From Oscillospiraceae bacterium (GTDB taxonomy: Bacteria > Bacillota > Clostridia > Oscillospirales > Ruminococcaceae), in the NCBI GenBank assembly GCA_018434245.1, contig JAHDPQ010000146.1, forward strand, positions 1-32,541: DNA of 32,541 bases, given 5' to 3'. The notes below the pieces were generated by a model. It made no database searches. It was not told the DNA's origin and was given only the letters and a program-made list of their open reading frames with translations. Each line of letters opens with the position of its first letter. Within the stretch, counting starts at the first letter, position 1. The position numbers and the translations under genes were made by a program. Below are positions 3,022 to 23,675 of this stretch, piece after piece.

Positions 3022-5463
3022 TTATTTTAGCAACTGATTCGTTTGAAAAAAACCCTTCCAGGGGTCGGAGTCACCAAGTCTTGACAGTGCATCCGCCATA
3101 TGGATGCCATTGGGAGCAACTGTATCCAGCTCCTCCCATGCAATGGGCATGGATACCCGGGCCCCTTGTCTTGCCCGTATGGAATAAGGGGCGATACTGG
3201 TGGCCCCTCTGCCGTTGCGAATCCAGTCGATGAATATTTTGTTTGTCCGTTTACTCTTTCTAACATTGCTGGTGTAGCGGTCTGGCCATTTTTGCTCCAT
3301 CACCTGAGCCACCTGCCTTGCAAAATCGTGAAATGTATCCCAGGAAACAGCAGGTTGTAACGGTACCACCACATGATACCCTTTGCCTCCACTGGTCTTG
3401 AGATAGGCAATAAGGGAAAGCTCGGTGAGGATGCTTTTAATGTCTTTGACACCTTGGCGCACCAAATCAAGGTCCATTCCCTCGTCGGGATCCAGATCAA
3501 ACACCATCACATCCGGTTTTTCCAGCTGATCTACCCGGCTGCCCCAGGTGTGAAACTCCAGCGTGCCCATCTGTGCTTCCCATATCAGCCCCAAGGTGTT
3601 TTCGATATAAAAGTACTCTTCCGGTTCCCCATCGCTGTTGGGAACAGTTATGGTGACGACTTCCTGGCTGCCCGACCCGGGGTGTTTTTTATAAAAGCAG
3701 GACTGCGATACCCCCTTGGGACAGCGGACGATGCTTAAAATCCGATGACTTACATAGGGTAGCATACGCTCCGCTACCTGAGCGTAATACTCCACTACCT
3801 CAGCTTTTGCAATGGGGGGATCGTCAAATATCACCTTGTCGGGGCTTGTAATCTTGATTCCTTCTATCAGGATACTGCTTTCTTTTGTTTCCATCGGCTT
3901 CACCAACGTTTCAGGGGATGGCTGGAACTGCATCTCGTTATCCGCCTGTTCTTTTTTTATATTTCTGGGGTCCTTATCCGTCCGCAAACCTTTGAAGCTT
4001 GCCTGTCTCAACAGATTTTCTTCGGTCCACTGGGCAAATTTAATTTCGGCTACCAACTTCGGCTCAAGCCAGGTGATGGCTTCGTTGGATCTTGCCTTGG
4101 GCGCAGATTGGAAGGGGGATTCTGTCTTTTGCAGACCTTGAAATGTTGCCTCCAGCTCTTTTATGTCGGCTTCTGTAAAGCCTGTTCCGGCCCGCCCCAC
4201 ATAAATGAGCTGGTCTCCTTCGTAGATGCCGAGGAGAAGGGAGCTGATCCCTTGATTTTTTTTATTGGAAAGGGTATATCCCCCAATGACGAATTCCTGC
4301 CTTTTATCACATTTCAGCTTGACCCAATCTCCGTTTCGGGTTCCGCTGTAGAGGGAATCGGCGTATTTTCCGACGATTCCTTCCATGTTCATACGGCAGG
4401 CGGCCAAAAAGCTCTCCCGGCCCTTGCCTTTGACGTGGCGGCTGTATTGTAGGTTGTTAGGAGCATTCTGCAGCAGGGATTCCAGCGTCTCTTTTCGTTG
4501 GATCAGAGGCTGCTCTCGGAGATCGGAACCGTCCAGAGCCAACAGGTCGAAGATGATGTAGGTGAGATTTTGGGGCTGGGAATTTCTCATATGGTTTTGT
4601 AGCGCCTGAAAATCTGTCCTGCCCTGGGCATCCGCAATCACCATTTCCCCGTCCAGCACCATGGCCCGCCCAGCGGCCCAATCCAGCAGAGAGTTGGCAA
4701 CACCCTGAAACCGCTGGGTGTAGTCGTTGCCGTTCCGAGTGATTAGCCGGGCACCTCCTCCCTCCACATACCCGAGTATTCGGTAGCCGTCGTATTTTAG
4801 CTCGAATAGCCAGTCTTCCCCGGAAGGAATCCCGCTCACCAGCTTTGCGAGCTGCACTTCGGTCTGGTTAAAGGGGTTTTTGGTGGTTTTATCCGGTATG
4901 CCTCCTTCAATTTCTGTCATGGTGCGCCCCGTGCGAATGCTGGTGGTAAACTGGGAAATCCCATCATTTGATCTGGCATACTCGTCTTTTTCTTTCAGCA
5001 GAAGCCAGTTGTTTTTATTCTCGCCGTCTTTTGCCTTCATCCGCACCAGAGCCCATTTTCCTCTGAGTCTTCTTCCCTGCAGGACAAATTTAAGGGAGCC
5101 GTTGACAAGGCCATCGGCTACATCCGCTTGGGGCTCCCAGCAGCCTTCGTCCCAAAGCAGGACGGTGCCTCCACCGTATTCCCCTTTGGGAATGATTCCC
5201 TCGAAGTTCCGATATTCCAAGGGGTGATCTTCCACCTGTATGGCAAGCCGCTTGTCCCGGGTGTTGTAAGATGGCCCCTTGGGCACTGCCCAGCTTAACA
5301 GAACACCCTTCCATTCCAGGCGGAAGTCGTAGTGATCCCGGCGGGCCATATGGTGCTGCACCACAAACCGAAGCCCCTCGTCAGGCTCTGCTATTTCACC
5401 TTGGGGTTCCAGAGTTTTTCCAAAATTTCGTTTTTGATTATACTCTTCCAACCTGGCTTCCAT
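3022..5463 (-). CDS. ligD: ATP-dependent DNA ligase D (PE-LIG-POL)
   Basis: The 813-residue multifunctional end-processing and sealing enzyme of bacterial non-homologous end joining, acting with Ku. The domain order is phosphoesterase, ligase, polymerase, as in Pseudomonas; Bacillus LigD lacks the phosphoesterase and mycobacteria put the polymerase first. Phosphoesterase (about 30-185): H38, H44, D46, R48 (HYDFRLEW) plus H80 and Y84. Ligase (about 205-500): nucleotidyl-lysine K223 in ELKYDGYRI, motif IV EGIVGK, motif V VKLK. Polymerase (about 535-810): D656/D658 in FDLDPD, SGGKGYH with H697, and D746. All expected catalytic residues are present. The start ATG overlaps the ku stop codon by one base, so the two are probably translationally coupled. 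Confidence 0.97.
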   Translation of the reverse strand: MEARLEEYNQKRNFGKTLEPQGEIAEPDEGLRFVVQHHMARRDHYDFRLEWKGVLLSWAVPKGPSYNTRDKRLAIQVEDHPLEYRNFEGIIPKGEYGGGTVLLWDEGCWEPQADVADGLVNGSLKFVLQGRRLRGKWALVRMKAKDGENKNNWLLLKEKDEYARSNDGISQFTTSIRTGRTMTEIEGGIPDKTTKNPFNQTEVQLAKLVSGIPSGEDWLFELKYDGYRILGYVEGGGARLITRNGNDYTQRFQGVANSLLDWAAGRAMVLDGEMVIADAQGRTDFQALQNHMRNSQPQNLTYIIFDLLALDGSDLREQPLIQRKETLESLLQNAPNNLQYSRHVKGKGRESFLAACRMNMEGIVGKYADSLYSGTRNGDWVKLKCDKRQEFVIGGYTLSNKKNQGISSLLLGIYEGDQLIYVGRAGTGFTEADIKELEATFQGLQKTESPFQSAPKARSNEAITWLEPKLVAEIKFAQWTEENLLRQASFKGLRTDKDPRNIKKEQADNEMQFQPSPETLVKPMETKESSILIEGIKITSPDKVIFDDPPIAKAEVVEYYAQVAERMLPYVSHRILSIVRCPKGVSQSCFYKKHPGSGSQEVVTITVPNSDGEPEEYFYIENTLGLIWEAQMGTLEFHTWGSRVDQLEKPDVMVFDLDPDEGMDLDLVRQGVKDIKSILTELSLIAYLKTSGGKGYHVVVPLQPAVSWDTFHDFARQVAQVMEQKWPDRYTSNVRKSKRTNKIFIDWIRNGRGATSIAPYSIRARQGARVSMPIAWEELDTVAPNGIHMADALSRLGDSDPWKGFFQTNQLLK

Positions 5464-6236
5464 TACGCCAAGGCCTTTTCATTTTGAGCCTTTTCCACAC
5501 TGGCCTTGAGGGCCTCCATTAAATCAATGACCTTGGCGGGGCCTTCGGACTGGGCGGCAACTACTTCCTGTCCGGAGATTTTGGTTTCGATAAGAGCGCG
5601 GAGCTTGATCTGATATTCGTCCTGATACTGGGCAGGATCAAAGGGGGTGTCCATGGAGCTGATCAAGGTCTTTGCCATATTGAGTTCTTGTTGGGAAACC
5701 TCCGGTCTGGTATATTGCTTTTGGAGCCCCCGGATGTCGTCGGCGTAGAACATGGTGGAAATGAGGATGCCGTCTTCCCGGGGGATGATGGCCATCAGGG
5801 TATCCTTGGTACCCATCACGGTTTTGCCAATGGCAATCTTCTGTTCATCCATCAGTGCGGCGCGCAGCAGCTCAAAGGCTTTTTCGCCTCCTGCCTCCGG
5901 TGCGGCCTGATAGGTTTTATCATAGTAGACGGGGGAAATCTGATTGAGCTGTGCAAAGTGAAGAATCTGAATGGATTTTTCCTTTTCCGTCTTGATTTTT
6001 TCAATCTCATCGTCTGTGACGACCACATATTTGTCTTTGTCGTACTCAAAGCCCTTTACAATATCCCCTGTCGTAATCTCCTGGCCGCAGTGGGAGCAGG
6101 TCTTTTTATACCGAATCCGGCTGTTGTCTTCCTTGTGCAATTGGTTGAAATGAATATCGTTGTCCTGAGTGGCGGTAAACATGGCGATGGGAATGGCAAC
6201 CATGCCGAATGTGATGACTGATTTGCGGGATACCAT
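5463..6236 (-). CDS. ku: Ku DNA end-binding protein
   Basis: A 257-residue bacterial Ku. It forms a homodimeric ring on double-strand break ends and recruits LigD. The core begins SVITFGMVAIPIAMFTA and includes RIRYKKTCSHCGQEI, then DIVKGFEYDKDKYVVVTDDE. The C-terminal tail ends in a short Lys/Glu/Ala-rich segment typical of LigD recruitment. The frame is open 60 codons further upstream, but the start at 6236 is chosen: it has GGAGGTG at 6251-6245, and the family N-terminus begins just here. ku and ligD share one base at their junction, which makes a two-gene repair operon. In spore formers such operons often act in the spore; no clear sporulation promoter is visible here. Confidence 0.95.
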   Translation of the reverse strand: MVSRKSVITFGMVAIPIAMFTATQDNDIHFNQLHKEDNSRIRYKKTCSHCGQEITTGDIVKGFEYDKDKYVVVTDDEIEKIKTEKEKSIQILHFAQLNQISPVYYDKTYQAAPEAGGEKAFELLRAALMDEQKIAIGKTVMGTKDTLMAIIPREDGILISTMFYADDIRGLQKQYTRPEVSQQELNMAKTLISSMDTPFDPAQYQDEYQIKLRALIETKISGQEVVAAQSEGPAKVIDLMEALKASVEKAQNEKALA

Positions 6237-6391
6237 AATAGAAACACCTCCGGATTTAGTGTTTCCAATTGAGGGATTGGTATCCAGAGCGGAGTACAAT
6301 ACCCGCTGTGCTGTAAATTTTATGGTAGAAATTGGGATGCTTCTGAGCCGTTGACAGTTGGGGAAAATCCATCCCCTGACCGAAAAGAAAG

Positions 6392-6427
6392 ATCCCACCA
6401 AATGGAAGGGAACCATCTTGGTGGGAT
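6392..6427 (-). terminator. Intrinsic terminator after the mutase gene
   Basis: A 10-bp stem (6392-6401 with 6418-6427) with an inner TGG/CCA pairing. On the minus strand a T-rich run follows (CTTTCTTTTC), and four Ts follow on the plus strand. It separates the permuted mutase from ku, so the NHEJ genes are probably an independent unit. Confidence 0.75.
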
Positions 6428-6487: not shown

Positions 6488-8056
6488 TTACCGATAGGGG
6501 GTGCCTTGACCCAGAACCATGGAATCGTAGGCCCGCTTGACCCGGTCGTAGTTCTTATCCCGATCCAGCACCAAACCTCTGCCGACGCCGCCGGCAATCT
6601 GGCCGGTGCCGATTTTCCGCAGTTGCTCCTCCAGTTCCGCCAGCAAAGCGGGGGCGCTTCCCGGCTCGGTGCTGCGTCCGTCAAAGATGACATGCAGCCA
6701 TACCCGGTCCAGCCCCTGCGTTCCCGCCATCCGGCAGATTTCCAGAGGGTAGTCGATAGAGCCGTGGGAGGATTTTTTGGTCAGGTAGGCCAGAAGATGA
6801 AGGTCTCCGCCTGTTTTTTTGGCGTAGTCCACCGTCTGTCGCAGCACCTGGTTGTCGGCAAAGGTACCGTTGGAAATGGCGTTGGAAAGGCGCTGGTCAT
6901 CCTGAGGGACTACCCGGCCCGCCCCCAGGTTCATGTGCCCCGCCTCGGAGTTGCCCGGCTTTCCTGCTTCCAGGCCCACATCCTCGCCGGAGGCATCCAG
7001 CAGGCTGTGGGGATAGGCGCGCAGCAGGCGGTCCCAATAGGGGGTGTCGGCCAGATGGATGGGGTTAGTTTCATCCTCCGCGCCCATGCCCCAGCCGTCC
7101 AGAATCAGAAGCAACACCCGGCCTTGACGGGGGGGATCCGCAGCCAGCAGACTTTGGCCCTCCATGGCTTGGGTGGGGGACAGCCCCATCAGCTGCAGGA
7201 TGGTGGGGGCTACATCCCCCAGCCGCCCGTCCTTGAGGGGAGCCGCTGCCCGGCACACTTCTTCATCCCCCACCACAACAAAGGGGACCTTGTTGGTGGT
7301 GTGGGCCACATGAGGCTGCCCCTTGGGGGTGTACAGTACCTCCAGATTGCCGTGGTCGGCGGTGACCACCACGGTAAAGCCCGCTTGCCGGGCGGCCTCT
7401 ACCAGTTCCTCCATAGCTTTGTCCACATGAGTGGCGGCAGCAATCTTGGCCTCCCGGTTGGTGGTGTGGCCGATTACATCCCCGTTGGCAAAGTTCACCA
7501 CAATGAAGGGGTACTGGTCCAGACGGCTGCGCACCTCTCTCACCACCTCAAAGATACTCAACTGGGGAATTTGATCAAAGGGGATGCCTTTGGGAGAGGG
7601 GATGCGCAGGTCGTCCTCCCCGGGGAAGGGCTGGTGGTGCCCCCCGTTGAAGAAGAAGGTTACGTGGGCGTATTTTTCCGACTCGGCACAGTGAAGCTGA
7701 GCAAGACCCGCCCGGCTGACCGCTTCCGCCAAGCCATCCATCACCTGACTGGGGGCAAAGGCGGTAGGCAGGTCTTTGAACTTTTCGTGGTACATGGTCA
7801 GGGGCACAAAGCGCAGCCCCGGCAGAAAGGTTCGCTCCACCGCGTCAAAATCAGGATCGGTGAACATGTCGGTCATCTCGATCTCCCGCTCTCCCCGGCG
7901 GCAGCAAAAGACCACGCCGTCCCCTGGACGGATTAGTCCCATGGGTGCACCTTCTGAATCGACTCGCACCAGCGGTTCCATAAAATAATCGGTTTGTCCC
8001 TGCCGGTAGGCTTGTTCTACGGCGCCAGCCAGCAGAGTTCCTCCCCGTTCATTCAT
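6488..8056 (-). CDS. gpmI: Circularly permuted cofactor-independent phosphoglycerate mutase homologue
   Basis: A 522-residue alkaline-phosphatase-superfamily protein with the full iPGM sequence in rotated order. Residues 1-305 match the usual second half (QAYRQGQTDYF, EKYAHVTFFFNGG, VNFANGDVIGHT, TADHGN, GDVAPTILQLMGL). Residues 312-522 match the usual first half (LLLILDGWGMG, GNSEAGHMNLGAGR, FDGRSTEP, LDRDKNYDRVKRAYD). Metal and nucleophile residues are kept: D320, S370, D193, H197, D234, H235, H252. Substrate residues are mostly kept: K128, R54, R57, H431, R493, R499. The usual Asp of DGRD is replaced by S462. The frame is continuous with no stops. The start has GTGGAG a few bases upstream. 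It follows the ABC operon's terminator, so it is expressed by read-through or its own promoter. The activity could be mutase, phosphatase or something related. Confidence 0.9.
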   Translation of the reverse strand: MNERGGTLLAGAVEQAYRQGQTDYFMEPLVRVDSEGAPMGLIRPGDGVVFCCRRGEREIEMTDMFTDPDFDAVERTFLPGLRFVPLTMYHEKFKDLPTAFAPSQVMDGLAEAVSRAGLAQLHCAESEKYAHVTFFFNGGHHQPFPGEDDLRIPSPKGIPFDQIPQLSIFEVVREVRSRLDQYPFIVVNFANGDVIGHTTNREAKIAAATHVDKAMEELVEAARQAGFTVVVTADHGNLEVLYTPKGQPHVAHTTNKVPFVVVGDEEVCRAAAPLKDGRLGDVAPTILQLMGLSPTQAMEGQSLLAADPPRQGRVLLLILDGWGMGAEDETNPIHLADTPYWDRLLRAYPHSLLDASGEDVGLEAGKPGNSEAGHMNLGAGRVVPQDDQRLSNAISNGTFADNQVLRQTVDYAKKTGGDLHLLAYLTKKSSHGSIDYPLEICRMAGTQGLDRVWLHVIFDGRSTEPGSAPALLAELEEQLRKIGTGQIAGGVGRGLVLDRDKNYDRVKRAYDSMVLGQGTPYR

Positions 8057-8076: not shown

Positions 8077-8116
8077 AAAAAAGCGCCGGAAGAAGCCTTG
8101 GGTCCTCCTCCGGCGC
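8077..8116 (-). terminator. Intrinsic terminator after the ABC operon
   Basis: On the minus strand a 13-bp GC-rich stem (8116-8104 with 8095-8083, two G-U pairs, 8-nt loop) is followed by six Ts (8082-8077). This is a strong terminator between the last ABC gene and the permuted mutase gene. Confidence 0.85.
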
Positions 8117-8148: not shown

Positions 8149-9252
8149 TTAGATAATCATCCGCCGGGCCCGTTCCTTATCGGAGTCGTCCTCCTCCGCT
8201 GGATACCACATGGGGCTTGGGAACTTCAGGCGGCACGGCTCTCCTTCTTGGAACAAGTTGCGGTGCAGAGTCTGCACCCGCAGTATGTCGTCACCGACCG
8301 GCACCAGATACTCTACAAAGTCGGTGCGGAACACCCGCTTGAGCACCTTGGTGGAGTAGCCCTCGTCCCGGCCCATCTCAATGGTGTTGGGCCGGGTGGC
8401 CATCAGCATTTCCTTGTTGCCGCCGGTCTGAGGGGCGGCCCAAATTTGTTGGGAATGGTCCCCCTTGGCGTAGACCTTACCGTCCCGGATGTCCACGTGG
8501 GTAAAGTTGGACTGCCCCAAAAAGCTGTGGACAAAGCGGCTGGAGGGGCTGTTGTACAGTTCCACCGGAGTGCCGATCTGCCGGACGTTGCCCATATCCA
8601 TCACCAGCATCCGGTCGGAAAGAGCCATGGCCTCCGACTGGTCGTGGGTAACGAAGATGATGGTGAAGCCAAACTGCTTTTGCAGCTTCTTAATTTCAAA
8701 GCGCATGGTTTCCCGCAGCTGGGGGTCCAAGTTGGAAAGAGGCTCGTCCAGCAGCATCACCTTGGGGTTGACCACAATGGCCCGGGCCAGAGCGATCCGC
8801 TGCTGCTGCCCGCCGGAAAGATCGGAGGGGTAGATTTTTTCCATGCCGTCCAGACTGCAGTGCTTCAGAGCAACCTTGACCCGCTCCCGAATTTCGGCGG
8901 CGGGGCGCTTTTGCACCTGCAGGGGGAAGGCCACGTTGTCAAAAATGGTCATGTGGGGCCAGACGGCAAAGGCCTGAAACACCATGCCCAACCCCCGCTC
9001 CTCCGGCGGCAGATAGATGTTTTTTGCCTTGACCGATACGGCATGACCCCCCAGATAGATGGCACCTTCCGACAAATCTTCAAACCCGGCAATCATCCGC
9101 AGGGTGGTGGTTTTTCCGCAACCGGAAGGCCCCAGAAAGGAAAAGCATTCCCCTTCGTTCACCTTGAGGCAAAAGTCGTTGACAGCCGTCACCGTGCCCA
9201 AAGCCTTGGTGGTAAACCTTTTTGTGACATGTTCCAATACGATCTGTTCCAT
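8149..9252 (-). CDS. ABC transporter ATP-binding protein (Fbp/Pot type, second ATPase)
   Basis: A 367-residue cytoplasmic ATPase powering the importer encoded upstream. Walker A GPSGCGKT (41-48), Q-loop VFQAFAVWP, signature LSGGQQQR (145-152), Walker B VMLLDE (165-170), D-loop SNLD and H203 in VTHDQ are all present. The C-terminal 120 residues form a TOBE-like regulatory domain, as in iron, polyamine and sugar-phosphate importers. The start at 9252 is preferred over an ATG 15 codons upstream, because GGGGG lies just ahead of it and the family N-terminus begins at EQIVLEHVTKRF. It starts 4 nt after the permease stop. A terminator follows. Having a second, different ATPase in the operon is unusual and suggests a heterodimeric motor. 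Confidence 0.94.
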   Translation of the reverse strand: MEQIVLEHVTKRFTTKALGTVTAVNDFCLKVNEGECFSFLGPSGCGKTTTLRMIAGFEDLSEGAIYLGGHAVSVKAKNIYLPPEERGLGMVFQAFAVWPHMTIFDNVAFPLQVQKRPAAEIRERVKVALKHCSLDGMEKIYPSDLSGGQQQRIALARAIVVNPKVMLLDEPLSNLDPQLRETMRFEIKKLQKQFGFTIIFVTHDQSEAMALSDRMLVMDMGNVRQIGTPVELYNSPSSRFVHSFLGQSNFTHVDIRDGKVYAKGDHSQQIWAAPQTGGNKEMLMATRPNTIEMGRDEGYSTKVLKRVFRTDFVEYLVPVGDDILRVQTLHRNLFQEGEPCRLKFPSPMWYPAEEDDSDKERARRMII

Positions 9253-9256
9253 TGGG

Positions 9257-10987
9257 TCAGACCCCCTTCTTGTCTCTGGTGATCCGCTTGACCACATTGT
9301 TACAGATCATGATCAGCAGAATGGTGATCACCGACAAAGCTGCCGCAGGGGCGATCTGCCCGTTGATGCGCAGCTGATAGATGGCGACTCCCAGAGTGCG
9401 GCTGTTGGGGCCGTAGAGGAGCACCGATGTGGTCAACTCCCGCATGGCTGGGAAAAACACCAGGAAGAATCCCGAGATCATGGCGGGCTTGATCAAAGGC
9501 AAGGTAATGTCCCGCAGCGACTCCAGATGGGTGGCGCCACAGGCCCGGGAGGCTTCCTCTAACGAGACGTGAACCTGCTGTAGCGAAGCGGAACTGGATT
9601 TAAGGGTGTAGGTAAGGTACCGGGCCACATAGGCCACCAGAATAATCCAGATGGTGTTGTACAGGGTAACGCCAAAGAAAGCGCCGCTCCAAGCCAAAAT
9701 GCAACCGATGGCCAGCACCGTGCCGGGCAGAGAGTAGGGCAGCACCGCCAGCAGCTCCAGAACGCCCCGGCCCTTGGGCTTGACCTTGTAGATGACATAG
9801 GCCAGCATAGCGCCCAAAAACAGGCAGATAATGCCTGCGGCAAATCCCAAAAACAGGCTGTTGCCCACAGAATCCTTCACCATGGTGTTGTTGATGAGAA
9901 TCCGCTTGTAGTTTGCCACAGTGAAGTTTTCCGGAGCAAAGTTCAGACCGTAGGCCTTGATGAAGCTGACCAGCAGAATCATCACCAGCGGGGCCAGCAC
10001 CACCAGGACCAAAAAGACCAGAGAAAAGATGAGCAGTGGGTACTTGGCCGCCCGCAGTTTGATGAGAGCCGGGCGCATACTCTTGCCCTTGATGATGTCG
10101 TAGCGGCCTACCGTCAGCAGTTTGCGCTGCAGCAGCAGAGCAAGGGAAACCACCACTACCAGCACAATGGAAAGGGCCGTGGCCTGCCGGATGCCTTCAA
10201 AGCTACCGCCAGCCCGGTTCATCCGCTCCACAATCATGGTGGGCAGGGTGAAGATGTTCTGGGAAAAGCCCAGCATGGCGGGAATGCCGTAATTGGAAAG
10301 GGAAGTGATTAGTACCAGCAACACGCCGGAGGAAATGGCGGGAATGGTCAGAGGCAGGGTGATCCTGCGGATGACGTAAAACTGCTTGGCACCGGCAATG
10401 CGGGCGCTTTCCTCCAGGGTGGGGTCCATCCGCTCCAAGGCGCTGACCACCTGCATGTAGACAAAGGGAAAGTAGTAAACCACCTCAATGATGATGATGC
10501 CCATGACGGTGTTGATGTTAAAAGGTGCAGAGGCCAGGTTAAAGGTGTTCATCAGCCAGCGGTTGACATAGCCACCCCGGCCGGAGAACATCATATCCCA
10601 TGCCATGGCTGCCAAAAAGGGAGGAATCATAAAGGGGATGGAAAAGAGGAACTTCATCACACCCTTGAGGGGGATGTCGCTGCGGCCCAGCAGCCAGGCG
10701 AAAAAGACGCCCACTACTGTAGCCAAAGTGGTGGAGAACACCGCGATGATCAGGGTGTTCTTAATGGCGGTCAGGTTCTCTTTTTGCAGCAGGACGTTGA
10801 GGAACATCTGAAAATCGATCTTGCTGCCATCCCAGAAAGCGTAGTAAATGATCATGAATACCGGTAGAATAACCACCGTAATCAAAATCAGGTAGCACAG
10901 CAGAGTCATGATCCGGTCCAGATTTAAAAAGCGGCGGCCTTCCAGCTTTTCCAGATCGCTGTTTCTTTTTCTAGCAAACTTCTTCAT
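9257..10987 (-). CDS. ABC transporter permease, fused two-domain (FbpB type)
   Basis: A 576-residue integral membrane protein made of two fused binding-protein-dependent permease domains, about 12 membrane segments in all. Each half has its EAA coupling loop: EESARIAGA with downstream TLPLTIP (about 192-216), and EEASRACGATHLESLRDITLPL (about 477-500). The two halves form the complete translocation channel, so no separate partner permease is expected. It overlaps the upstream ATPase by 4 nt (ATGA) and is followed 4 nt later by the second ATPase. The substrate cannot be read from the permease. The family includes ferric, thiamine, 2-aminoethylphosphonate and hexose-phosphate importers. Confidence 0.94.
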   Translation of the reverse strand: MKKFARKRNSDLEKLEGRRFLNLDRIMTLLCYLILITVVILPVFMIIYYAFWDGSKIDFQMFLNVLLQKENLTAIKNTLIIAVFSTTLATVVGVFFAWLLGRSDIPLKGVMKFLFSIPFMIPPFLAAMAWDMMFSGRGGYVNRWLMNTFNLASAPFNINTVMGIIIIEVVYYFPFVYMQVVSALERMDPTLEESARIAGAKQFYVIRRITLPLTIPAISSGVLLVLITSLSNYGIPAMLGFSQNIFTLPTMIVERMNRAGGSFEGIRQATALSIVLVVVVSLALLLQRKLLTVGRYDIIKGKSMRPALIKLRAAKYPLLIFSLVFLVLVVLAPLVMILLVSFIKAYGLNFAPENFTVANYKRILINNTMVKDSVGNSLFLGFAAGIICLFLGAMLAYVIYKVKPKGRGVLELLAVLPYSLPGTVLAIGCILAWSGAFFGVTLYNTIWIILVAYVARYLTYTLKSSSASLQQVHVSLEEASRACGATHLESLRDITLPLIKPAMISGFFLVFFPAMRELTTSVLLYGPNSRTLGVAIYQLRINGQIAPAAALSVITILLIMICNNVVKRITRDKKGV

Positions 10988-12075
10988 TCCGCTGCCGCCT
11001 CCTTTGCATCGTAATATTTTTCGTTGAGGAAGGTAAGGCCCACCTGCTGCCCCTCTTCATACTCCTTGCCGCCCAGGGCGTCCAGAGTGCTGCGCTGCAC
11101 CCGCAGCTCCAAATCCCCCAGGCGCACAAAGTAGTTGTACAGGCTGCCCAAAAACACCGCTTGCTCGATGGTTCCTTTGACGGGGCTCTTGTCGTCAAAG
11201 ACGATGTCCATGGGCCGCACGCCCATGACCACGTTTTCTGCGTCATCCAGATAGCCCTCGGGCTTGCTGTCCCGGTAGCAGACCCGGCCTTTGCCGGTTT
11301 CCACCCAGTATTTTCCCTCCCGCCGGGTGACGGGGATAAAATTGGAAACGCCGATGAAGCTGAAGACAAACCGATTGGCTGGGTTTTTGATAATCTCCTC
11401 GTCGGTGCCGATCTGGCAGATGGAGCCGTCCTTTTCCATAATGACGATGCGGTCGCACAGCTGCATGGCCGCCTCCTGATCATGGGTGATGTAGATGATG
11501 GTGGTGTTTAGCCGCGACTGCATCAGGCGGATTTCCACCAGCATCTGCTCCCGGAGCTTAGCATCCAGGTTGGTGATGGGTTCATCCATGACAATGATGT
11601 CGTCGGAGGAGGTGAGGGCCCGGGCGATGGCCACCCGCTGCTGCTGCCCCCCGGAAAGCTGGGAGGGCATATACTTTTCGTAGCCGGTCATCTGAGCCTG
11701 TTCCAGGGCGTAGGTCACCCGCTTTGGAATCTGATCCTTGGGCACTTTCCTCTTTTTGAGGGGATAGGCTACATTGTCGTACACCGACATATGGGGCCAG
11801 ATGGCGTAGTCCTGAAAGACGATGCCGATTTTGCGGTTTTCTGGCGGGACGTTGACCCGCTCCTCTCGGCTAAAAACCGTTTTGCCATTGATGGTGACCT
11901 TTCCTTTTTCCGGGTTGAGGAAGCCGCACAGGCTGCGGATTGCCGTAGTTTTGCCGCAGCCGGAAGGCCCTACGATGCCCACGATTTCCCCGGGCTCCAC
12001 CGCCAGAGAAAAATCCTGCAGCACGATGTGATCGCCGTATTTGGCGCAGATATGTTCCAATGTTACCTTGGACAA
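10984..12075 (-). CDS. ABC transporter ATP-binding protein (first ATPase)
   Basis: A 363-residue ATPase with Walker A GPSGCGKT, Q-loop VFQDYAIWP, signature LSGGQQQR, Walker B IIVMDE, D-loop TNLD and H-loop ITHDQ, followed by a TOBE-like C-terminal domain (GVRPMDIVF region). It is clearly related to the second ATPase but much diverged from it. The start is a TTG (12075-12073, reading SKVTLEHICAKYG), with AAAGGGG about 12 nt upstream; no in-frame ATG fits better. Its stop overlaps the permease start as ATGA. It lies between the binding protein and the permease, after a hairpin that could lower transport-gene expression relative to the binding protein. Confidence 0.93.
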   Translation of the reverse strand: MSKVTLEHICAKYGDHIVLQDFSLAVEPGEIVGIVGPSGCGKTTAIRSLCGFLNPEKGKVTINGKTVFSREERVNVPPENRKIGIVFQDYAIWPHMSVYDNVAYPLKKRKVPKDQIPKRVTYALEQAQMTGYEKYMPSQLSGGQQQRVAIARALTSSDDIIVMDEPITNLDAKLREQMLVEIRLMQSRLNTTIIYITHDQEAAMQLCDRIVIMEKDGSICQIGTDEEIIKNPANRFVFSFIGVSNFIPVTRREGKYWVETGKGRVCYRDSKPEGYLDDAENVVMGVRPMDIVFDDKSPVKGTIEQAVFLGSLYNYFVRLGDLELRVQRSTLDALGGKEYEEGQQVGLTFLNEKYYDAKEAAAE

Positions 12076-12271: not shown

Positions 12272-13375
12272 TTAGCCCTTAAAGATGGCATCAAACCGGT
12301 CCAGCAGCTCGTTACTCACCTTGGCCAGATCATTCCAGTCGATGGGCAGAGCCTTTTCGGCCACGTCGGTGGCGGCCATCATGCCCTCGGGTAGCTCAAG
12401 GCCGTCTACGATAGGGGTGATGTTGTACTGGGTCAGCAGGGTTTGACCGCCGTTGGGGTCCAGAATAAAGTCATACAGCAGTTGGGCCAGTTCCAGATGA
12501 GGGGCACCCTCGGGGATGGCGATAGGGCAGGGAACCGCTACAATATCGGTGGTGTCGTGCCAGCCCAAGGGAGAACCTTCTGCGATGAGGTTCTTGGTGT
12601 TGTAGTCCACGCCAAAGGCCAGCTTGTAAGCACCGGAGGCCACACCGTTGTTGGTGGAACCGGAGCTGGACTGCAGCTCTGCACCCAGTTCCTTGAGCTT
12701 CTCAAAATATTCCCAACCGTATTTTTCGTGGTTGGTCAAAGCATAAACCAGAGCTTTGGTGGAGCCGGAACCGGTGGGGTCAGTGAGGACGATCTGGCCC
12801 TTGAAGGCATCATTGAGGACCTCGTCGTAGTTATGAGGAGCTTCCTCGTCGGAGCTGGTCATGGTACTGAAGGTCATCCCCATCAGCAGCAGACGGGCAC
12901 CGCTGTAGTAGCTGTCCGCATCCTTAAACTTTTCATTGATCCCCTCTGCAAAGGGAGATTCGTACTTGGTCAGGTGATCTTCACTTTTCAGGGAGATCAT
13001 GGCAGAGGGATCGGCCAGCCAGGCAAGGTCGCAGGCCACGGTGCCGGACTGGAACTCGGTGGCCAGCTTGGTGACACATTTGCCGGAAGTTGCGGCGTAA
13101 TAGTCCAGAGTCACGTTGGGGTACTTGGCCTCAAAAGCATCCTTCAAAGCGATGATGACATCTTCGCCGGTGGAGGAGTAAAGCATTACGGTACCTTTGT
13201 AGCTGGCGGGATCAATTTCGGTTTCGCCGGTGCTTTCTGCAGGAGCTGCATCGGTAGGAGTATTCGCTACAGACTGCGGGGCGGCAGTGGAAGGCGCTTT
13301 GGAGTTTCCGGAGCAGGCTACAGTTGCCAGAAGCATCAGCCCTGCCAGAATAAGTGCCATCACCTTTTTAATCAT
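12272..13375 (-). CDS. Extracellular solute-binding lipoprotein (Fbp/Afu-like)
   Basis: A 367-residue surface lipoprotein that captures the importer's substrate. The signal peptide is MIKKVMALILAGLMLLATVAC with a lipobox ending at C21, followed by a Ser/Thr/Ala/Pro-rich linker. The mature part starts YKGTVMLYSSTGEDVI and has the type 2 periplasmic-binding fold features of the ferric/thiamine/phosphonate cluster (LAWLADPSAMISLK, LTDPTGSGSTKALVYAL). I see no C-terminal adjacent tyrosine pair of the kind that binds iron in FbpA, so an iron role is doubtful. Afu-type homologues bind sugar phosphates. AAAGGA lies upstream of the ATG. It is the first gene of the operon and divergent from the AraC-type sensor, which is its likely regulator. 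Confidence 0.92.
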   Translation of the reverse strand: MIKKVMALILAGLMLLATVACSGNSKAPSTAAPQSVANTPTDAAPAESTGETEIDPASYKGTVMLYSSTGEDVIIALKDAFEAKYPNVTLDYYAATSGKCVTKLATEFQSGTVACDLAWLADPSAMISLKSEDHLTKYESPFAEGINEKFKDADSYYSGARLLLMGMTFSTMTSSDEEAPHNYDEVLNDAFKGQIVLTDPTGSGSTKALVYALTNHEKYGWEYFEKLKELGAELQSSSGSTNNGVASGAYKLAFGVDYNTKNLIAEGSPLGWHDTTDIVAVPCPIAIPEGAPHLELAQLLYDFILDPNGGQTLLTQYNITPIVDGLELPEGMMAATDVAEKALPIDWNDLAKVSNELLDRFDAIFKG

Positions 13376-13575: not shown

Positions 13576-13604
13576 TTTAAAGCGGATTGACTATATGATA
13601 TAAT
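13576..13604 (+). promoter_or_regulatory. Predicted promoter of the AraC-type regulator
   Basis: TTTAAA (13576-13581), a 17-bp spacer and a perfect TATAAT (13599-13604). The -10 overlaps an in-frame ATG at 13603, which argues that translation starts at the later ATG (13633). Confidence 0.5.
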
Positions 13605-13632
13605 GAAAAGCAGAAGGAAGGTGTGCAACTTT

Positions 13633-15879
13633 ATGAAAAAAGAGCGGTTTCGCTTTGCACGGGTGGGGGGCAGAACTTCAATTTCCCTTCGGTTCAACAC
13701 CGTGGTTTTGTCCTGTTTTGTGCTGATTGCAGCCTTTTTGGGGCTGCTGTACCATCAGTTCCAGAAGGTGCTGCTGGAGTCCATCAACAATCTCAACACC
13801 GAATTTGTAGCTCAGGTGAGCGCCACCTCCGGCTTTGCGGAGGAATTTTTGCAGAACATGGCCAACCAGATCTTTTACACCCATTCGGTTTCCAAGCTCC
13901 GCTCCTATCAGGAGCTGACCAACCAACAGGTGATCGAGGGCATCCGGGAACTGAACTCCTTTGCGGCTTCCAGTACCATCATCGATTCCATCTACATATT
14001 TAACGGCAAGCAGGATTATGTCTACAGCACCTCCTCCACTGGGGCAGTGAGCGACGCCACCGATTCTTTTGCCGATCAGGCGGCGGTGGAGTTGTTTGGC
14101 CGGCGCAATGCCGCCCAGCGTCTGGTACCCATTCCCCGATACTCCCGTTCCGCCAACCGGTCCAGCAACCGGGAGCTCTACTCCTTCCTGTTCTTTGAGC
14201 TGGATAGCTCCGGCACCCCCCGGGACAACGCCATTATGTTCAACATCAGCAAAAACTGGTTTACCAAGCTCTACTTCAGCAACGATCCGGGAAACCGGGC
14301 GTTTATTGTCAGTGGGGAGAAGGAGCTTATTGCCCTGCAGAACGGCCTGTCCACCGACGAGTGTCAGAGCCTTTCCGACCGGGTTCTCCCCATGGCCCAG
14401 CAGGGCGACGACAGCGGCTACTTTGTCTATACGGCCCAAAATGGCGAAAAGAGCCTCTGCTTCTTTTCCGTCATGGGCAGTCACGACTGGTATTATGTCA
14501 AGACTGTTGGTTATGACCAGTGCCTCAGCGACCTGAAGGACATCGAAAAAGAGGCCATGATATTTCTGGCGGTGGGGTTTGCAATCCTCTTTGCGGGAGG
14601 CGCCATCATCTCCCTCAACATCTACCTGCCCTTTCAGCAGGTGGCCAACCGCCTTTCCCTCATCGAGCCCGGGGCCTCTCAGGATACCAGCCTGCTGCTG
14701 GACAGCCTCAACCGGCTGATCGAGACCAGCTCCAGCGCCGACCGGGTGCGGGATTCCCTGCAGGCTATGGTGCGGGGGGAGGTGCTGGAGGGGCTGCTGC
14801 AGGGAAGCCGCCAGTTCGAAAATCCCGCCGCCCTGATTGGGGAATACGACCTTAACCTCACCGGCGATGCGCCTCTGATGCTTTGTCTGGCCAGCGGCCT
14901 ACGGATGCCCCAATATCTGGAGTGCGCCCGGGAAACCATCCCCTATCGGGAGGGCGTGGTGATACAAAACGAATACACCGTCCTTTTTTTGCAGCCCACC
15001 GACCCTGCCTCCCTGTCCCCGGTGCTGCAGCAGCTGTGTGCCCGTTACCCCAGCGTCTGGTTTATCATAAGTCCCGAAATCACCGACTGGCAGATGCTGC
15101 CTCAGGCCTATGAAAAACTGTTGGAGACCTTCCATCTGCGGTTTCTCTTTCCCCGGGAGAAGCTCCTGTTTTCTGAAACCTTTGGTGAGCTGGACAACTC
15201 CTCCGCCGTTTTGGAACAGAAGATCGACCCCATCCTTTCCGCTTTGAAAAAGGGGTATGGCAACAAAACCATAGAGGCCTATCAGGATTTTGTCGCCTGC
15301 TTTGCCGGACAAAGCTACCGGAGCATCTCTTATGCCTTAACCGCTCTTTCCAACGCTGTCTTTAAGCTCTACTTCGAGGTATTCCCCAACCAGGACAGAT
15401 CCTATGAAGCCGCCTGCCGGGATTTTGAACAGCAGCTGAACACTCTGGTGGACATCGAAACCCTCAACCGCACCTTTGAAGAGCTGTTCACCCAAATTGC
15501 CGAACAGCTGCAAAAGGAGCGGCAGGCCAAGCGGGGTAACGCCATGGAAGAGATTATGGAGACCATTCAGGAGTGCTACTGCGACCCCAACCTTTCCTCC
15601 CAGTCTCTGGCCGACCGCTTTGGCCTTTCCTCTGCCTACCTCTGCCGCCTGTTTCGTCAAGTGAATGGCTGCTCCCTGATGGATTACATCAATCAGCTGC
15701 GAATGGCCAAGGCGCAAGAAATCCTCTCCGATCCTTCAGTCAAGGTGAAGGATGTTCCCGAGCAGATCGGTATCGAGAACAAGCAGTACTTTTTCATGCT
15801 CTTTAAGCAGACCACCGGACAGACCCCCAAGCAGTTTCAGACCGCCCGGCAGGAAAAAGAATCTGCCGCTCTGGTGTGA
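13633..15879 (+). CDS. Membrane-anchored AraC-family sensor-regulator
   Basis: A 748-residue protein with TM1 at about 22-40, an extracytoplasmic sensing region of roughly 265 residues (likely dCache-like), TM2 at about 307-331 (FLAVGFAILFAGGAIISL), a cytoplasmic middle region, and a C-terminal double helix-turn-helix of AraC type (about 636-748). The HTH includes LSSQSLADRFGLSSAYLCRL and TGQTPKQF. There is no receiver or kinase domain, so signal and DNA binding are in one chain. This is common for clostridial regulators beside solute-uptake operons. The ATG at 13633 is chosen because AAGGAAGG precedes it, while the upstream ATG lies in the -10 box. It is divergent from the ABC importer, which it probably controls in response to the same external solute. 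Confidence 0.9.
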   Translation: MKKERFRFARVGGRTSISLRFNTVVLSCFVLIAAFLGLLYHQFQKVLLESINNLNTEFVAQVSATSGFAEEFLQNMANQIFYTHSVSKLRSYQELTNQQVIEGIRELNSFAASSTIIDSIYIFNGKQDYVYSTSSTGAVSDATDSFADQAAVELFGRRNAAQRLVPIPRYSRSANRSSNRELYSFLFFELDSSGTPRDNAIMFNISKNWFTKLYFSNDPGNRAFIVSGEKELIALQNGLSTDECQSLSDRVLPMAQQGDDSGYFVYTAQNGEKSLCFFSVMGSHDWYYVKTVGYDQCLSDLKDIEKEAMIFLAVGFAILFAGGAIISLNIYLPFQQVANRLSLIEPGASQDTSLLLDSLNRLIETSSSADRVRDSLQAMVRGEVLEGLLQGSRQFENPAALIGEYDLNLTGDAPLMLCLASGLRMPQYLECARETIPYREGVVIQNEYTVLFLQPTDPASLSPVLQQLCARYPSVWFIISPEITDWQMLPQAYEKLLETFHLRFLFPREKLLFSETFGELDNSSAVLEQKIDPILSALKKGYGNKTIEAYQDFVACFAGQSYRSISYALTALSNAVFKLYFEVFPNQDRSYEAACRDFEQQLNTLVDIETLNRTFEELFTQIAEQLQKERQAKRGNAMEEIMETIQECYCDPNLSSQSLADRFGLSSAYLCRLFRQVNGCSLMDYINQLRMAKAQEILSDPSVKVKDVPEQIGIENKQYFFMLFKQTTGQTPKQFQTARQEKESAALV

Positions 15880-16294: not shown

Positions 16295-17554
16295 TTAAAA
16301 ATCCAGCCGCCCCGGGGACCGACGGCAAACCCCGGAGATGCCTGCGGCTGCCAACTTTTGCAGCAGGGGACCGCAGCTTTCCTGTGCGGTGTGAAAAAGC
16401 ATGGCCTGCTTTGCACCCAGCTGCTTTGCCAGCCTGAGAGCATCTTCTTCATCTTGATGGGCCTTAATGGTGATCCGCTTCGCCTGCACCGCCACCCTGT
16501 TTTTGACCCGGTAATCCTCCTTAAAGATTAGGGAGCCCATCACCCCTTTGGAGGTATGACCGGTGATGATGATTTGATCCGCCGGACAGCTCTTCATCCG
16601 CTCATAGTAGAACAGAGCCGCCTTGCTGGTGAGCATGCCGTCGGGGGTTAGAATCACACCGCCTTCCACCAAGGCCTGTTCTCGCTGCTCGTCACTGCTC
16701 AAGGAATGCACCGGAAGGTTTTTGGCCCATCCCCAGTCCTTCCCCTGATGCAGCCACTGCTGTTCTTTCAGCAGTGCATCGGCTTGGCACAGCACATCCT
16801 TCTCCGCCCAGATGGGGACATTTTCTAGGGTCTGACCCAGATACAGCAGAATATCGCAGCCCCGGCCGTTGGGGGGGACCGGAAGCAGTACCCGGCCTCC
16901 TGCAGCCACTGTGGCCTTCACCGATTGGAGCAGCGTTTTGTATTGAGTCTGCTGGCAAAGCTCCCTGCCGGCGTAAGCGCATTCCAGAATTGCCGTGTCT
17001 GCCTGGGGTGGAAGATCGGCCGCCAGAAGCTGCCCATCAAAGGTCATGTCGCCGGTGTACAGGAGAGTTTTGCCGCCCACGTTAAAATGAATCCAAATGC
17101 TGCCCAACATGTGGCCGCTCCGCCCCAGTGTCAGGGAAATGCCCTTCCAATTCTGGCTTCCCAGTTCCACGGGGCAAAAGTCCAGAAGGTTTACGTTTTC
17201 TTCCCGGAAAGGAAGAGTTCCGCCTCCGGCCTTGACAAAGCGAATCCACTTATTCATGAACCCCTTCACCATCTGGATGGTCTGGATTGTGGCGTAAACC
17301 GGTCCCCGGTAGCCCAGCTCGGCGAGATAGGGCAGGGCTGCCACGTGATCCTCGTGGGCGTGGGAAAGAAACACCCCGTCCAGAGACGTGGCGATTTGAG
17401 GGGTGAGGGCGGGGTAAATTCGCTCCTGCCCGGCCTCTAATTCCCGGCGGACACCACAGTCCAGCAGGACCAACCGCTGGCCAAGGCGCACCAAAAAGCA
17501 GCTGCGGGCATCCTCGCCGCTGCCGCCCAAAGACATCACCCAGTATTCTTCCAT
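16295..17554 (-). CDS. Beta-CASP metallo-beta-lactamase-fold hydrolase (putative RNase)
   Basis: A 419-residue cytoplasmic protein. The zinc site motif HAHEDH is at 65-70, with later ligands in GRSGHMLGS and LLYTGDM. A beta-CASP insert follows, with an acidic motif ILECAYA, GGRVLLPV, the motif IITGHTSKG and a final histidine in MLFHTA. This arrangement marks the CPSF/RNase J-related nuclease group that cleaves RNA, though the exact target is unknown. It lacks the long C-terminal extension of true RNase J and is closer in size to archaeal-type and YSH1-like single-chain members. A weak AGG precedes the ATG. It stands alone, separated by a terminator from the operon upstream. Confidence 0.85.
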   Translation of the reverse strand: MEEYWVMSLGGSGEDARSCFLVRLGQRLVLLDCGVRRELEAGQERIYPALTPQIATSLDGVFLSHAHEDHVAALPYLAELGYRGPVYATIQTIQMVKGFMNKWIRFVKAGGGTLPFREENVNLLDFCPVELGSQNWKGISLTLGRSGHMLGSIWIHFNVGGKTLLYTGDMTFDGQLLAADLPPQADTAILECAYAGRELCQQTQYKTLLQSVKATVAAGGRVLLPVPPNGRGCDILLYLGQTLENVPIWAEKDVLCQADALLKEQQWLHQGKDWGWAKNLPVHSLSSDEQREQALVEGGVILTPDGMLTSKAALFYYERMKSCPADQIIITGHTSKGVMGSLIFKEDYRVKNRVAVQAKRITIKAHQDEEDALRLAKQLGAKQAMLFHTAQESCGPLLQKLAAAGISGVCRRSPGRLDF

Positions 17555-20311: not shown

Positions 20312-20431
20312 TATTCTCACAAAGGTACTGTCCGCCTGTCGCAGAGCCTGACGCCCAATCTCAGCTCTCGACGACCGGGGTATCCTCATAATGTCAGACG
20401 CACTATGCGTCAAATAATGGAGGTAATTATG

Positions 20432-22063
20432 ATGGAAAAGTACCCGTTGAACGTTCCCGCCCCCCGCTCCTTCTCCTATGTCAAGCGCAACCTTCCCCAA
20501 GTTACCGTAGAGCAACGTGAGCGTGCCCTTAAAGCAACCCACTACAACGAGTTTGCTTTCCCCGCCGGCATGTTGACGGTAGATATGCTCTCCGACTCCG
20601 GCACCACCGCCATGACCGATGTCCAGTGGAGCGCTATGTTCCTGGGCGACGAGTCCTACGGCCGGAACAAGGGCTACTATGTCCTGCTGGACGCCCTGCG
20701 GGATGTGTTTGAGCGCGGCGACAACCAGAAGAGAGTCATCGACCTGGTCCGCACCGACTGCCAGGACATCGAAAAGATGATGAACGAGCTGTACCTGTGC
20801 GAATACGAAGGCGGCCTCTTTAACGGCGGCGCCGCACAGATGGAGCGCCCCAACGCCTTTATTCTGCCTCAGGGCCGCGCCGCAGAAAGCGTCCTCTTTG
20901 AGATGATCCGCAAGATTCTGGGCGAGCGCCATCCCGGTAAGAAGTTCACCATTCCCTCCAACGGTCACTTCGACACCACCGAGGGCAACATCAAGCAGAT
21001 GGGTTCCATCCCCCGCAACCTGTACAACAAGGACCTGCTGTGGGAAGTGCCCCAGGGCGGCAAGTACGAGAAGAACCCCTTTAAAGGCAACATGGACACC
21101 AAAAAGCTGGAAGAGTTGATCGAAAAGCTGGGTCCCGAGAATGTGCCTCTGGTTTACACCACCATTACCAACAACACCGTTTGCGGTCAGCCGGTTTCCA
21201 TGGCCAACCTGCGTGAATCCAGCCGCATCGCCCACAAGTACGGCATCCCCTTTATGCTGGACGCTGCCCGCTGGGCCGAGAACGCCTACTTCATCAAGGT
21301 CAACGAGGAAGGCTACGCCGACAAGTCCATCGCCGCAATCGCCACAGAGATGTTCTCCTACTGCGACGGCTTTACCGCCTCCCTGAAGAAGGACGGCCAC
21401 TCCAACATGGGCGGCATTCTTGCCTTCCGGGACAAGGGCCTCTTCTGGAAGAACTTCTCCGACTTCAACCCCGACGGCAGCATCAAGACCGATGTGGGTA
21501 TCCTGCTGAAGGTTCGGCAGATTTCCTGCTACGGCAACGACTCCTACGGCGGCATGTCCGGCCGTGACATTATGGCTCTGGCTGCCGGACTCTACGAATG
21601 CTGCAACTTCAACTATCTGGACGAGCGGATTAAGCAGTGCGAGTATCTGGCCCAGGGATTCTATCAGGCCGGCATCAAAGGCGTTGTGCTTCCTGCCGGT
21701 GGACATGGCGTGTACATCAATATGGACGAGTTCTTTGACAACGAGCGGGGCCACGAAACCTTTGCCGGCCAGGGCTTTAGCTTGGAACTGATCCGCCGCT
21801 ATGGCATCCGTGTTTCCGAGTTGGGGGACTACTCTATGGAGTATGACCTGAAGACTCCCGAGCAGCAGGCGGAGGTCTGCAACGTTGTCCGCTTTGCCAT
21901 CAACCGCAGCCAGCTCAGCCAAGAGCATCTTGATTATGTCATTGCCGCAGTTAAGGCTCTGTACGAGGACCGGGATAGCATCCCCAATATGAAGATCACC
22001 ATGGGCCATAATCTACCCATGCGTCACTTCCACGCTTTCCTGGAGCCGTATCCCAACAAGTAA
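20432..22063 (+). CDS. tnaA: Tryptophanase/tyrosine phenol-lyase family PLP enzyme
   Basis: A 543-residue cytoplasmic beta-eliminating lyase. It would split an aromatic amino acid into pyruvate, ammonia and indole or phenol. Visible features are LSDSGTTAMTDVQWSAM, the cofactor-loop motif LPQGRAAESVLF, GQPVSMANLRE, DAARWAENAYFIK, and the PLP lysine (second K of SLKKDG, about K320). Near the C-terminus VSELGDYSMEYD aligns better with tryptophanase (AVEIGS) than with tyrosine phenol-lyase (MERG), so indole production is favoured but not proven. It is longer than the 460-470 residues usual for both enzymes, because of an insert of about 45 residues (about 96-140 here) just before LPQGRAAE. GGAGG (20419-20423) supports the ATG at 20432, or at 20429. 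An NSS-type transporter follows, as is common for such lyases. Confidence 0.88.
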   Translation: MEKYPLNVPAPRSFSYVKRNLPQVTVEQRERALKATHYNEFAFPAGMLTVDMLSDSGTTAMTDVQWSAMFLGDESYGRNKGYYVLLDALRDVFERGDNQKRVIDLVRTDCQDIEKMMNELYLCEYEGGLFNGGAAQMERPNAFILPQGRAAESVLFEMIRKILGERHPGKKFTIPSNGHFDTTEGNIKQMGSIPRNLYNKDLLWEVPQGGKYEKNPFKGNMDTKKLEELIEKLGPENVPLVYTTITNNTVCGQPVSMANLRESSRIAHKYGIPFMLDAARWAENAYFIKVNEEGYADKSIAAIATEMFSYCDGFTASLKKDGHSNMGGILAFRDKGLFWKNFSDFNPDGSIKTDVGILLKVRQISCYGNDSYGGMSGRDIMALAAGLYECCNFNYLDERIKQCEYLAQGFYQAGIKGVVLPAGGHGVYINMDEFFDNERGHETFAGQGFSLELIRRYGIRVSELGDYSMEYDLKTPEQQAEVCNVVRFAINRSQLSQEHLDYVIAAVKALYEDRDSIPNMKITMGHNLPMRHFHAFLEPYPNK

Positions 22064-22280: not shown

Positions 22281-23675
22281 ATGTCAGCTCCTGAAACGAT
22301 CCTGGAAAAACGCGATGGATTCCAAAGCAAGTGGGGATTCATCCTCGCCTGTATCGGCTCTGCGGTAGGTATGGGCAACATTTGGCGTTTCCCCATCATG
22401 GTCTCCAAATATGGAGGGTTGACTTTCCTGATTCCCTATGTTATCTTCGTCGTTCTGATTGCCGCCTCAGGCGTCATCGGTGAGTTTTCCCTGGGACGCG
22501 CCGCCGGTGCGGGCCCTATCGGCGCCTTTGGACAATGTACCCAGACACGCACCGGCAACAAAAAAATCGGTGAGGCCATCGGCATCATCCCTGTGATCGG
22601 TTCCCTGGCTCTGGCCATCGGCTACACCGTAGTGGTAGGCTGGATCTTTAAGTATACGTTTTTATCTCTTTCCGGCGGGCTGTATGCCCTGGGCACCGAT
22701 ATGGGTGCCATCGGGGGTACCTTTGGGGCCACCGCTCCGGAGACTGCCACCCTTGGCGAGAGCATGGCCACCGTATTTGGAGGTGGTGCAGGCAACAACC
22801 TGTGGCAGATTATCGGTCTGGCAGTTAGTATGATCATTATGGCTATGGGAATTGCCGGCGGCATCGAGAAGGCCAACAAAATCATGATGCCGGCACTGTT
22901 CTTCCTGTTTGTGGCTCTGGGTATCTACGTGTTTACGCTGCCCGGCTCTCACGATGGCTACAAGTACATTTTTACCATGGACCCTGCCGGATTGGCCAAC
23001 TGGGAAGTGTGGATCTTCGCCTTTGGGCAGGCCTTCTTCTCCCTGTCGGTGGCCGGCAACGGCAGTGTGATCTACGGCTCTTACCTGAGCAAGGAGGAGG
23101 ATGTCCTCTCCTCCGCACGGAACGTGGCCGTCTTTGATACCCTGGCTGCTTTGCTGGCTGCTTTTGTCATCATCCCCGCCATGGCGGCAGGCGGCGCCGA
23201 GCTTTCTTCCGGCGGCCCAGGACTTATGTTTGTCTATCTGGTCAATGTGTTTAACGGTATGCCCGGCGGCCGGATTGTCGGCATGATCTTCTATGTCTGC
23301 GTGCTCTTTGCCGGGGTTACCTCCCTCATCAACTTGTACGAGGCTCCTGTGGCCACCCTGCAAGAAAAATTCGGCATAAAGCGTCTTCCCGCCGTTGCTA
23401 CCATTGGTGTTCTGGGCTGCATCGTGTCGGTGTGCATTCAGGGCATTACCTCCCCGTGGATGGACGGTGTTTCCATTTATATCTGCCCTCTGGGTGCCAT
23501 GCTGGCCGGTATCATGTTCTTCTGGGTGGTGGGCAAGGAAAAAGTTCTGGAAGCCGTCAACATGGGCGCCAAGAAGCCTGTGGGCAATTGGTTTATCCCC
23601 TTGGGCAAGTATATCTATGTACCTCTGGCTCTCATCGCCCTGATCGCCGGCGTTGTTTTGGGCGGTATCGGCTAA
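22281..23675 (+). CDS. Sodium:neurotransmitter symporter (NSS) family transporter
   Basis: A 464-residue membrane protein of about 11-12 helices. The NSS hallmark is at the start: WGFILACIGSAVGMGNIWRF with the unwound TM1 sodium/substrate site. Later are GYTVVVGWIFKYTF, FGQAFFSLSVAGNGSVIYGS (TM6 region) and FAGVTSLINLYEA (TM8, with Ser/Thr sodium ligands). It couples Na+ entry to amino-acid uptake. Next to a tryptophanase-type lyase the likely substrate is tryptophan or tyrosine, as for bacterial TnaT-type members. AGAGAGGTG lies ahead of the ATG. A terminator follows. Confidence 0.93.
   Translation: MSAPETILEKRDGFQSKWGFILACIGSAVGMGNIWRFPIMVSKYGGLTFLIPYVIFVVLIAASGVIGEFSLGRAAGAGPIGAFGQCTQTRTGNKKIGEAIGIIPVIGSLALAIGYTVVVGWIFKYTFLSLSGGLYALGTDMGAIGGTFGATAPETATLGESMATVFGGGAGNNLWQIIGLAVSMIIMAMGIAGGIEKANKIMMPALFFLFVALGIYVFTLPGSHDGYKYIFTMDPAGLANWEVWIFAFGQAFFSLSVAGNGSVIYGSYLSKEEDVLSSARNVAVFDTLAALLAAFVIIPAMAAGGAELSSGGPGLMFVYLVNVFNGMPGGRIVGMIFYVCVLFAGVTSLINLYEAPVATLQEKFGIKRLPAVATIGVLGCIVSVCIQGITSPWMDGVSIYICPLGAMLAGIMFFWVVGKEKVLEAVNMGAKKPVGNWFIPLGKYIYVPLALIALIAGVVLGGIG

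Follow-up and report, generated by a model that had tools for sequence, protein, structure and literature searches.

Cofactor-independent phosphoglycerate mutase (iPGM, encoded by gpmI) is a two-domain metalloenzyme of central metabolism in which a serine relays a phosphoryl group from one hydroxyl of glycerate to the adjacent one (PMC12077085). TM0415 is reported to be a myo-inositol kinase that uses PPi; its donor determinants are K171, R229, R232, F221 and M266, it has an RXGRGD motif, and D11, N78, Q141 and R145 contact inositol (PMC5931981). In Mitsuokella, Ins(2)P is reported to accumulate as phytate is degraded by a periplasmic phytase route (PMC7618129).

The window, by which we mean the whole 32,541-nt stretch of DNA analysed here, encodes a protein that resembles GpmI (TIGR01307; 1EJJ) in that both domains, the metal ligands, the serine nucleophile and several substrate residues are present. 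It differs from GpmI in the rotated order of its halves, in the replacement of Asp154 by Ser and in other fixed changes; the permuted genes also lie beside HAD phosphatases and not beside glycolytic genes. In a small family from anaerobic bacteria, a two-domain metalloenzyme of central metabolism has thereby been circularly permuted in nature; the permutation is fixed family-wide together with a changed active site, and it may provide a clean case of permutation and new specificity going together. TIGR01307 places the permuted protein above its cut-off, as it would any ordinary phosphoglycerate mutase, so that a change of role would escape notice. The features of the locus are listed in Table 1.

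Table 1. Features of the permuted iPGM gene and the adjacent importer genes in the window
Feature	Position	Strand	Basis or remark
Circularly permuted iPGM, 522 aa	6488..8056	-	ORF, profile and 1EJJ alignment
Usual second half of iPGM, residues 1-305 (metal ligands D193, H197, D234, H235, H252)	7142..8056	-	
Linker, residues 306-313, connecting the usual C- and N-termini	7118..7141	-	
Usual first half, residues 314-522 (D320, nucleophile S370, Ser462)	6491..7117	-	
Ser462 codon (Asp154 in normal iPGM)	6671..6673	-	
Hairpin resembling a terminator (stem of 13 pairs followed by T6), between ABC ATPase gene and permuted iPGM gene	8083..8116	-	
ABC importer ATPase, PotA/PhnT class	8149..9297	-	No NCBIfam importer model over cut-off among those listed
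ABC importer permease, two permease domains	9257..10987	-	
Second ABC importer ATPase	10984..12075	-	
Solute-binding protein (SBP) of importer	12272..13375	-	
AraC-type regulator, divergent from importer genes	13603..15879	+	

Rotated order of the iPGM halves and recurrence of the gene

The window protein aligned with 1EJJ in two swapped blocks: its residues 12-304 paired with 219-509, and its residues 314-522 paired with 6-214. In 1EJJ numbering the permutation break falls between 214 and 219. TIGR01307 matched the protein in two stretches at 465 bits (cut-off 330.65), with both domains present. Against our own profile of 33 normal GpmI proteins from the window's genus and family, the native protein matched as two domains (261.7 and 198.4 bits) whose order was reversed; once rotated, it matched as a single domain of 470.6 bits. 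With the same profile, the halves were in reversed order in all 38 permuted proteins, and the best single domain score was higher after rotation in 38/38. Because two profile matches become one full-length match on rotation in every case, these comparisons of sequence confirm that the window ORF encodes a complete iPGM in rotated order. The original prediction, made from the DNA alone, had described just such an arrangement, with the second half first and a linker (LLAADPPRQG) between the halves, and had proposed the alignment to GpmI after rotation; both the 1EJJ alignment and the profile searches bear it out.

The window genome (3.11 Mb, 185 contigs) carries a second permuted copy on contig C102 with 59% identity to the window protein, and also a normal GpmI (C115, 746 bits), which answers the question of whether the host retains an ordinary gene of this kind. 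PF00300 matched in 9/9 genomes tested, a model too broad to indicate a cofactor-dependent enzyme. The permuted gene was found in 3 of 11 genomes of the window's genus, one other genome having a copy of 57% identity and one a partial copy at a contig edge. When 297 genomes drawn from the family were scanned, with at most four candidates scored per genome, full-length matches were confined to the window genome, and the best match elsewhere was a half-match of 261 bits. A scan of genome contigs revealed 57 related loci in other assemblies, of which one (L077) was frame-broken and two (L079 and L085) were cut by contig ends. By record title their hosts were Clostridia/Bacillota, many from rumen or gut, except for three Chloroflexi or Anaerolineales (L062, L064 and L070). 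Among viral contigs, none of 47 pattern matches was confirmed as a permuted relative.

An assembly rearrangement within the gene had been named as the outcome that would overturn the prediction. The additional permuted copy that the window genome carries and the 57 loci from other assemblies, together with the copy in the genus, rule out such an artefact in practice. In a FastTree phylogeny of the 38 permuted and 33 normal proteins, the latter solely from the window's genus and family and not from other phyla, a single branch set the permuted proteins apart (support 1.0, length 1.19), and the window copy formed a long separate branch inside the permuted set. Proteins sharing these termini grouped with one another, a point that the original prediction had asked to be checked, and most of their genes lay near HAD and ABC-importer genes. 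Among the titles found in the open-licence PMC literature, none concerned a permuted phosphoglycerate mutase or a phytate or inositol-phosphate cluster with a HAD, importer or kinase of the kind described below; nothing was found there on an inositol-phosphate mutase.

Active-site residues and gene neighbourhoods

Residues D320, S370, H431, S462 and R493 of the window protein aligned with D12, S62, H123, D154 and R185 of 1EJJ, and R499, R54, R57 and K128 with R191, R261, R264 and K336. The seven metal and nucleophile residues (D193, H197, D234, H235, H252, D320 and S370) were invariant in 38/38 permuted proteins, as were the equivalents of 1EJJ H123, R185, R191, R261, R264 and K336, in agreement with the predicted retention of the former and of most substrate residues. 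The Asp of the DGRD motif, which has a role in binding, was replaced by Ser, as had been noted for the window protein, in all 38 permuted proteins, whereas all 33 normal proteins had Asp154. Further changes fixed in the permuted set included Phe to Arg53, Asn to Cys52, Pro to Gly55, Asp to Glu56, Gly to Ser429, Val to Ser430 and Ser to Gly432, and Gly494 occurred where 31 of the 33 normal proteins have Tyr. The changed positions presumably line the substrate pocket, going by work on 1EJJ, and the pocket of the permuted enzyme may be both roomier and more basic.

Neighbouring genes were called with our own codon model and grouped by BLAST at 56 loci, namely 54 of the 57 loci, which were fetched, and the two host copies. 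The first upstream gene encoded a HAD phosphatase in 53/55 loci; the two other first neighbours were ABC ATPases, one of them the window's. HAD genes also occupied the next upstream positions (49/53, 43/49 and 41/48), followed at the fifth by a divergent LacI gene (37/47). The 211 HADs fell mainly into four groups, one of which took two positions, so that the fuller loci have five HADs. Importer genes and a small protein without a Pfam match lay further upstream; a protein of about 190 aa without a Pfam match adjoined the importer SBP gene at L060 (3182-3760) and at 25 other loci. Matches of the cluster SBP to the PDB were weak and were to Fe3+ SBPs (best E 0.004). Downstream, the first gene encoded PfkB in 25/54 loci or MgtC in 16/54, and the second a membrane pyrophosphatase in 18/49.

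As a control, we inspected the surroundings of normal gpmI genes in 16 carrier genomes and in the host, with 8 kb per side or up to the contig end; at one of these loci (G349) the gene caller gave no gpmI. A PGK-like gene was present at 12 of the 17 control loci, an ABC ATPase at 6, a HAD at 2 and ABC exporter genes at 1, and the cluster SBP, permease, PfkB and iol genes were absent from all 17.

The twelve cluster PfkB proteins that we compared with the PDB had TM0415 as their best match (E 1.2e-58; next protein 1.5e-7), and the RXGRGD motif was found in 39/39 cluster-type PfkB proteins. In the twelve aligned proteins, the equivalents of K171, M266, D11, N78, Q141 and R145 were invariant, as were R229 and R232, and only F221 departed (Val in the first row) from the donor determinants and inositol contacts reported for TM0415; the donor and acceptor of the cluster kinase are putative. 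The window genome has a TM0415-like kinase on contig C20 (375 bits), beside HAD, LacI and MgtC genes. Among 14 selected carrier genomes, 12 had a kinase match at E 1e-15 or better, two of these 12, both Chloroflexi, reaching only 180-192 bits. At the kinase locus of the host, an endonuclease/exonuclease/phosphatase-family protein (L132, 6917-7960) adjoins the genes for HAD and LacI.

Genes for iol functions, an importer, HADs and the permuted iPGM were found in one region in four genomes (G329, G340, G321 and G351), and in a fifth (G337) with other genes between; G338 was read in two loci, and the region of G342 was without an importer. As in the iol pathway of the B. subtilis type, the clusters contain iolG, iolE, iolD and an IolB-like gene. 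At L074, IolG, IolE and IolD were over their cut-offs and IolB was below; the IolG-like gene of other clusters was below both IolG cut-offs. The clusters depart from the B. subtilis-type pathway in that IolC was over its cut-off in 0/12 cluster genomes tested, genes for type II GAPDH, a PGK-like protein, split transketolase and malate racemase being found instead. Type II GAPDH and the PGK-like gene were present in some clusters. At L127 (9306-18419), L119 and L074, iol genes occur with type II GAPDH, the PGK-like gene, split transketolase and malate racemase (LarAH6), some with malic enzyme, a set that possibly represents a non-standard inositol route. At two Chloroflexi loci (L064, 11554-15242; L062, 3930-6071), the genes that follow the permuted iPGM encode an iPGM of archaeal type (ApgM) and phosphoribulokinase/uridine-kinase-like proteins.

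IolE was over its cut-off in 32 of 50 carrier genomes and, as read from our tables, lay on the same contig as the permuted gene, 5-19 kb away, in 12 of the 32. It was not over the cut-off in the window genome (best 67 bits) or in 17 others of the 50; G336 likewise had none over the cut-off. Of 120 genomes of the family of G338, a set centred on G338 itself and including the previously known G307, four had IolE and three the permuted enzyme, all three with IolE, only G365 being new. Among 394 genomes of the order of G338, IolE was found in 36 and the permuted enzyme in two, both with IolE and one being the centre. Fisher's test of 32/50 against 36/394 gave p 1.4e-17, a value that ignores relatedness and sets genomes spanning more than one order against a single order. 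Normal iPGM was over its cut-off in 34 of the 50 carriers.

Possible role of the permuted enzyme

Since many permuted genes lie in clusters seemingly for importing and stripping inositol phosphates, such as plant phytate, the permuted enzyme has probably taken on a new job. The altered specificity suggested by the original prediction is now better supported by the Ser fixed in 38/38 proteins, the other fixed changes, and operons pointing to inositol phosphates, and it is still read from sequence; the evidence that tells most comes from loci other than the window. Tentatively, and with slightly less than even confidence, we favour a subfamily that keeps the two-metal phosphoserine chemistry and acts on inositol phosphates, not phosphoglycerate. 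We infer an inositol-phosphate phosphotransferase, perhaps a mutase.

In such a scheme, the ABC system would import phytate or a lower inositol phosphate, from which cytoplasmic HAD phosphatases would then strip phosphates. Using its serine, the permuted enzyme would shift a phosphoryl group from one ring hydroxyl to an adjacent one, the axial O2 being a possible starting point, by analogy with the O2/O3 exchange that normal iPGM carries out on glycerate. A TM0415-like kinase working in reverse could then turn the monophosphate so formed, together with Pi, into inositol and PPi, and the membrane pyrophosphatase could exploit the PPi, saving energy. Given the reported accumulation of Ins(2)P in Mitsuokella (PMC7618129), a step moving or removing its phosphate would be useful. 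That route shares with the present clusters the use of inositol phosphates in the gut, with Ins(2)P as an intermediate; it differs in that the phosphatases here, judged from their families, have no obvious extracellular role and would act after import. The whole pathway, which would be an undescribed one comprising import, a bank of HADs, the permuted iPGM as a mutase that shifts a stubborn axial 2-phosphate, a reversed PPi kinase that hands the remaining phosphate to Pi and an ion-motive force from the pyrophosphatase, is unlikely to hold in full.

The evidence does not distinguish transfer from hydrolysis. An inositol-phosphate phosphatase, in which the phosphoserine gives up its phosphoryl group to water, is somewhat unlikely in our view: it would suit the tandem HAD context, up to five HADs and the permuted enzyme would make six, the number of phytate phosphates (a count that is only suggestive), and loss of Asp154 might impair the step that hands the phosphoryl group back to the substrate, but the substrate-binding residues of the transferase half of iPGM are kept in 38/38 permuted proteins. 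It appears improbable that in most carriers, the window host among them, the substrate is another phosphorylated or phosphonate compound (a sugar phosphate, for instance) that has nothing to do with inositol. Importer parts do resemble phosphonate, Fe3+ and polyamine classes, the flanks fetched for L062 and L064 showed no iol genes, and 18/50 carriers are without IolE over the cut-off; the inositol-kinase signature and the enrichment of IolE argue against such a substrate, as does the TM0415-like kinase that the window genome too has beside HAD, LacI and MgtC genes. A permuted phosphoglycerate mutase of unchanged function, serving lower glycolysis after inositol breakdown, is very unlikely despite the conserved catalytic residues, the TIGR01307 score and the type II GAPDH and PGK-like genes of some clusters, given the change of Asp154 to Ser throughout the permuted set, the normal iPGM of most carriers, the PGK-like gene that in 12 of the 17 control loci lies near normal gpmI and not the permuted gene, and permuted genes with no such glycolytic neighbours, for example in the window.

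Several points also count against the inositol-phosphate reading that we favour, namely the GAPDH and PGK-like genes just mentioned, which would suit a phosphoglycerate enzyme, the window genome and 17 other carriers being without IolE over the cut-off, the weak Fe3+ matches of the SBP, the short match between the window SBP and the cluster SBP, and a hairpin at the window gene. Judging from the operons, phosphates of the phytate type may be used intracellularly by uncultured bacteria of the gut and rumen and by some Chloroflexi, a point of relevance to phosphate and mineral nutrition.

The importer locus in the window

The importer of the window is of the phosphonate/Fe3+/polyamine class, and from its position the AraC-type regulator is probably linked to it. 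Terminator-like sites in the scanned region numbered 8, against 8.4 in shuffles; the hairpin upstream of the permuted gene had the longest stem of these, and the 89-nt stretch containing it folds at -36 kcal/mol (z -3.32). Because this hairpin separates the two, we do not take co-transcription of the permuted gene with the importer genes as certain. The window SBP matched the cluster SBP over 124 columns only, starting in the leader. In the host, HADs adjoin the other permuted copy (C102) and the kinase is on C20; the window copy may serve another role than the copies in iol-linked clusters. Rfam gave no matches in the window at its gathering thresholds.

The end-joining genes LigD (3022-5463) and Ku (5463-6416) lie directly downstream of the permuted iPGM. 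The window also encodes a metallo-beta-lactamase/beta-CASP-type protein (16295-17554; archaeal aCPSF1 150 bits and type VII CRISPR Cas14 94 bits, both below cut-off) and a tryptophanase-subfamily protein (20405-22063) followed by a sodium-dependent transporter (22281-23675). A membrane pyrophosphatase of the sodium-translocating type (24094-26118) is over the NF001960 cut-off and belongs to the same similarity cluster as those beside the permuted iPGM elsewhere.
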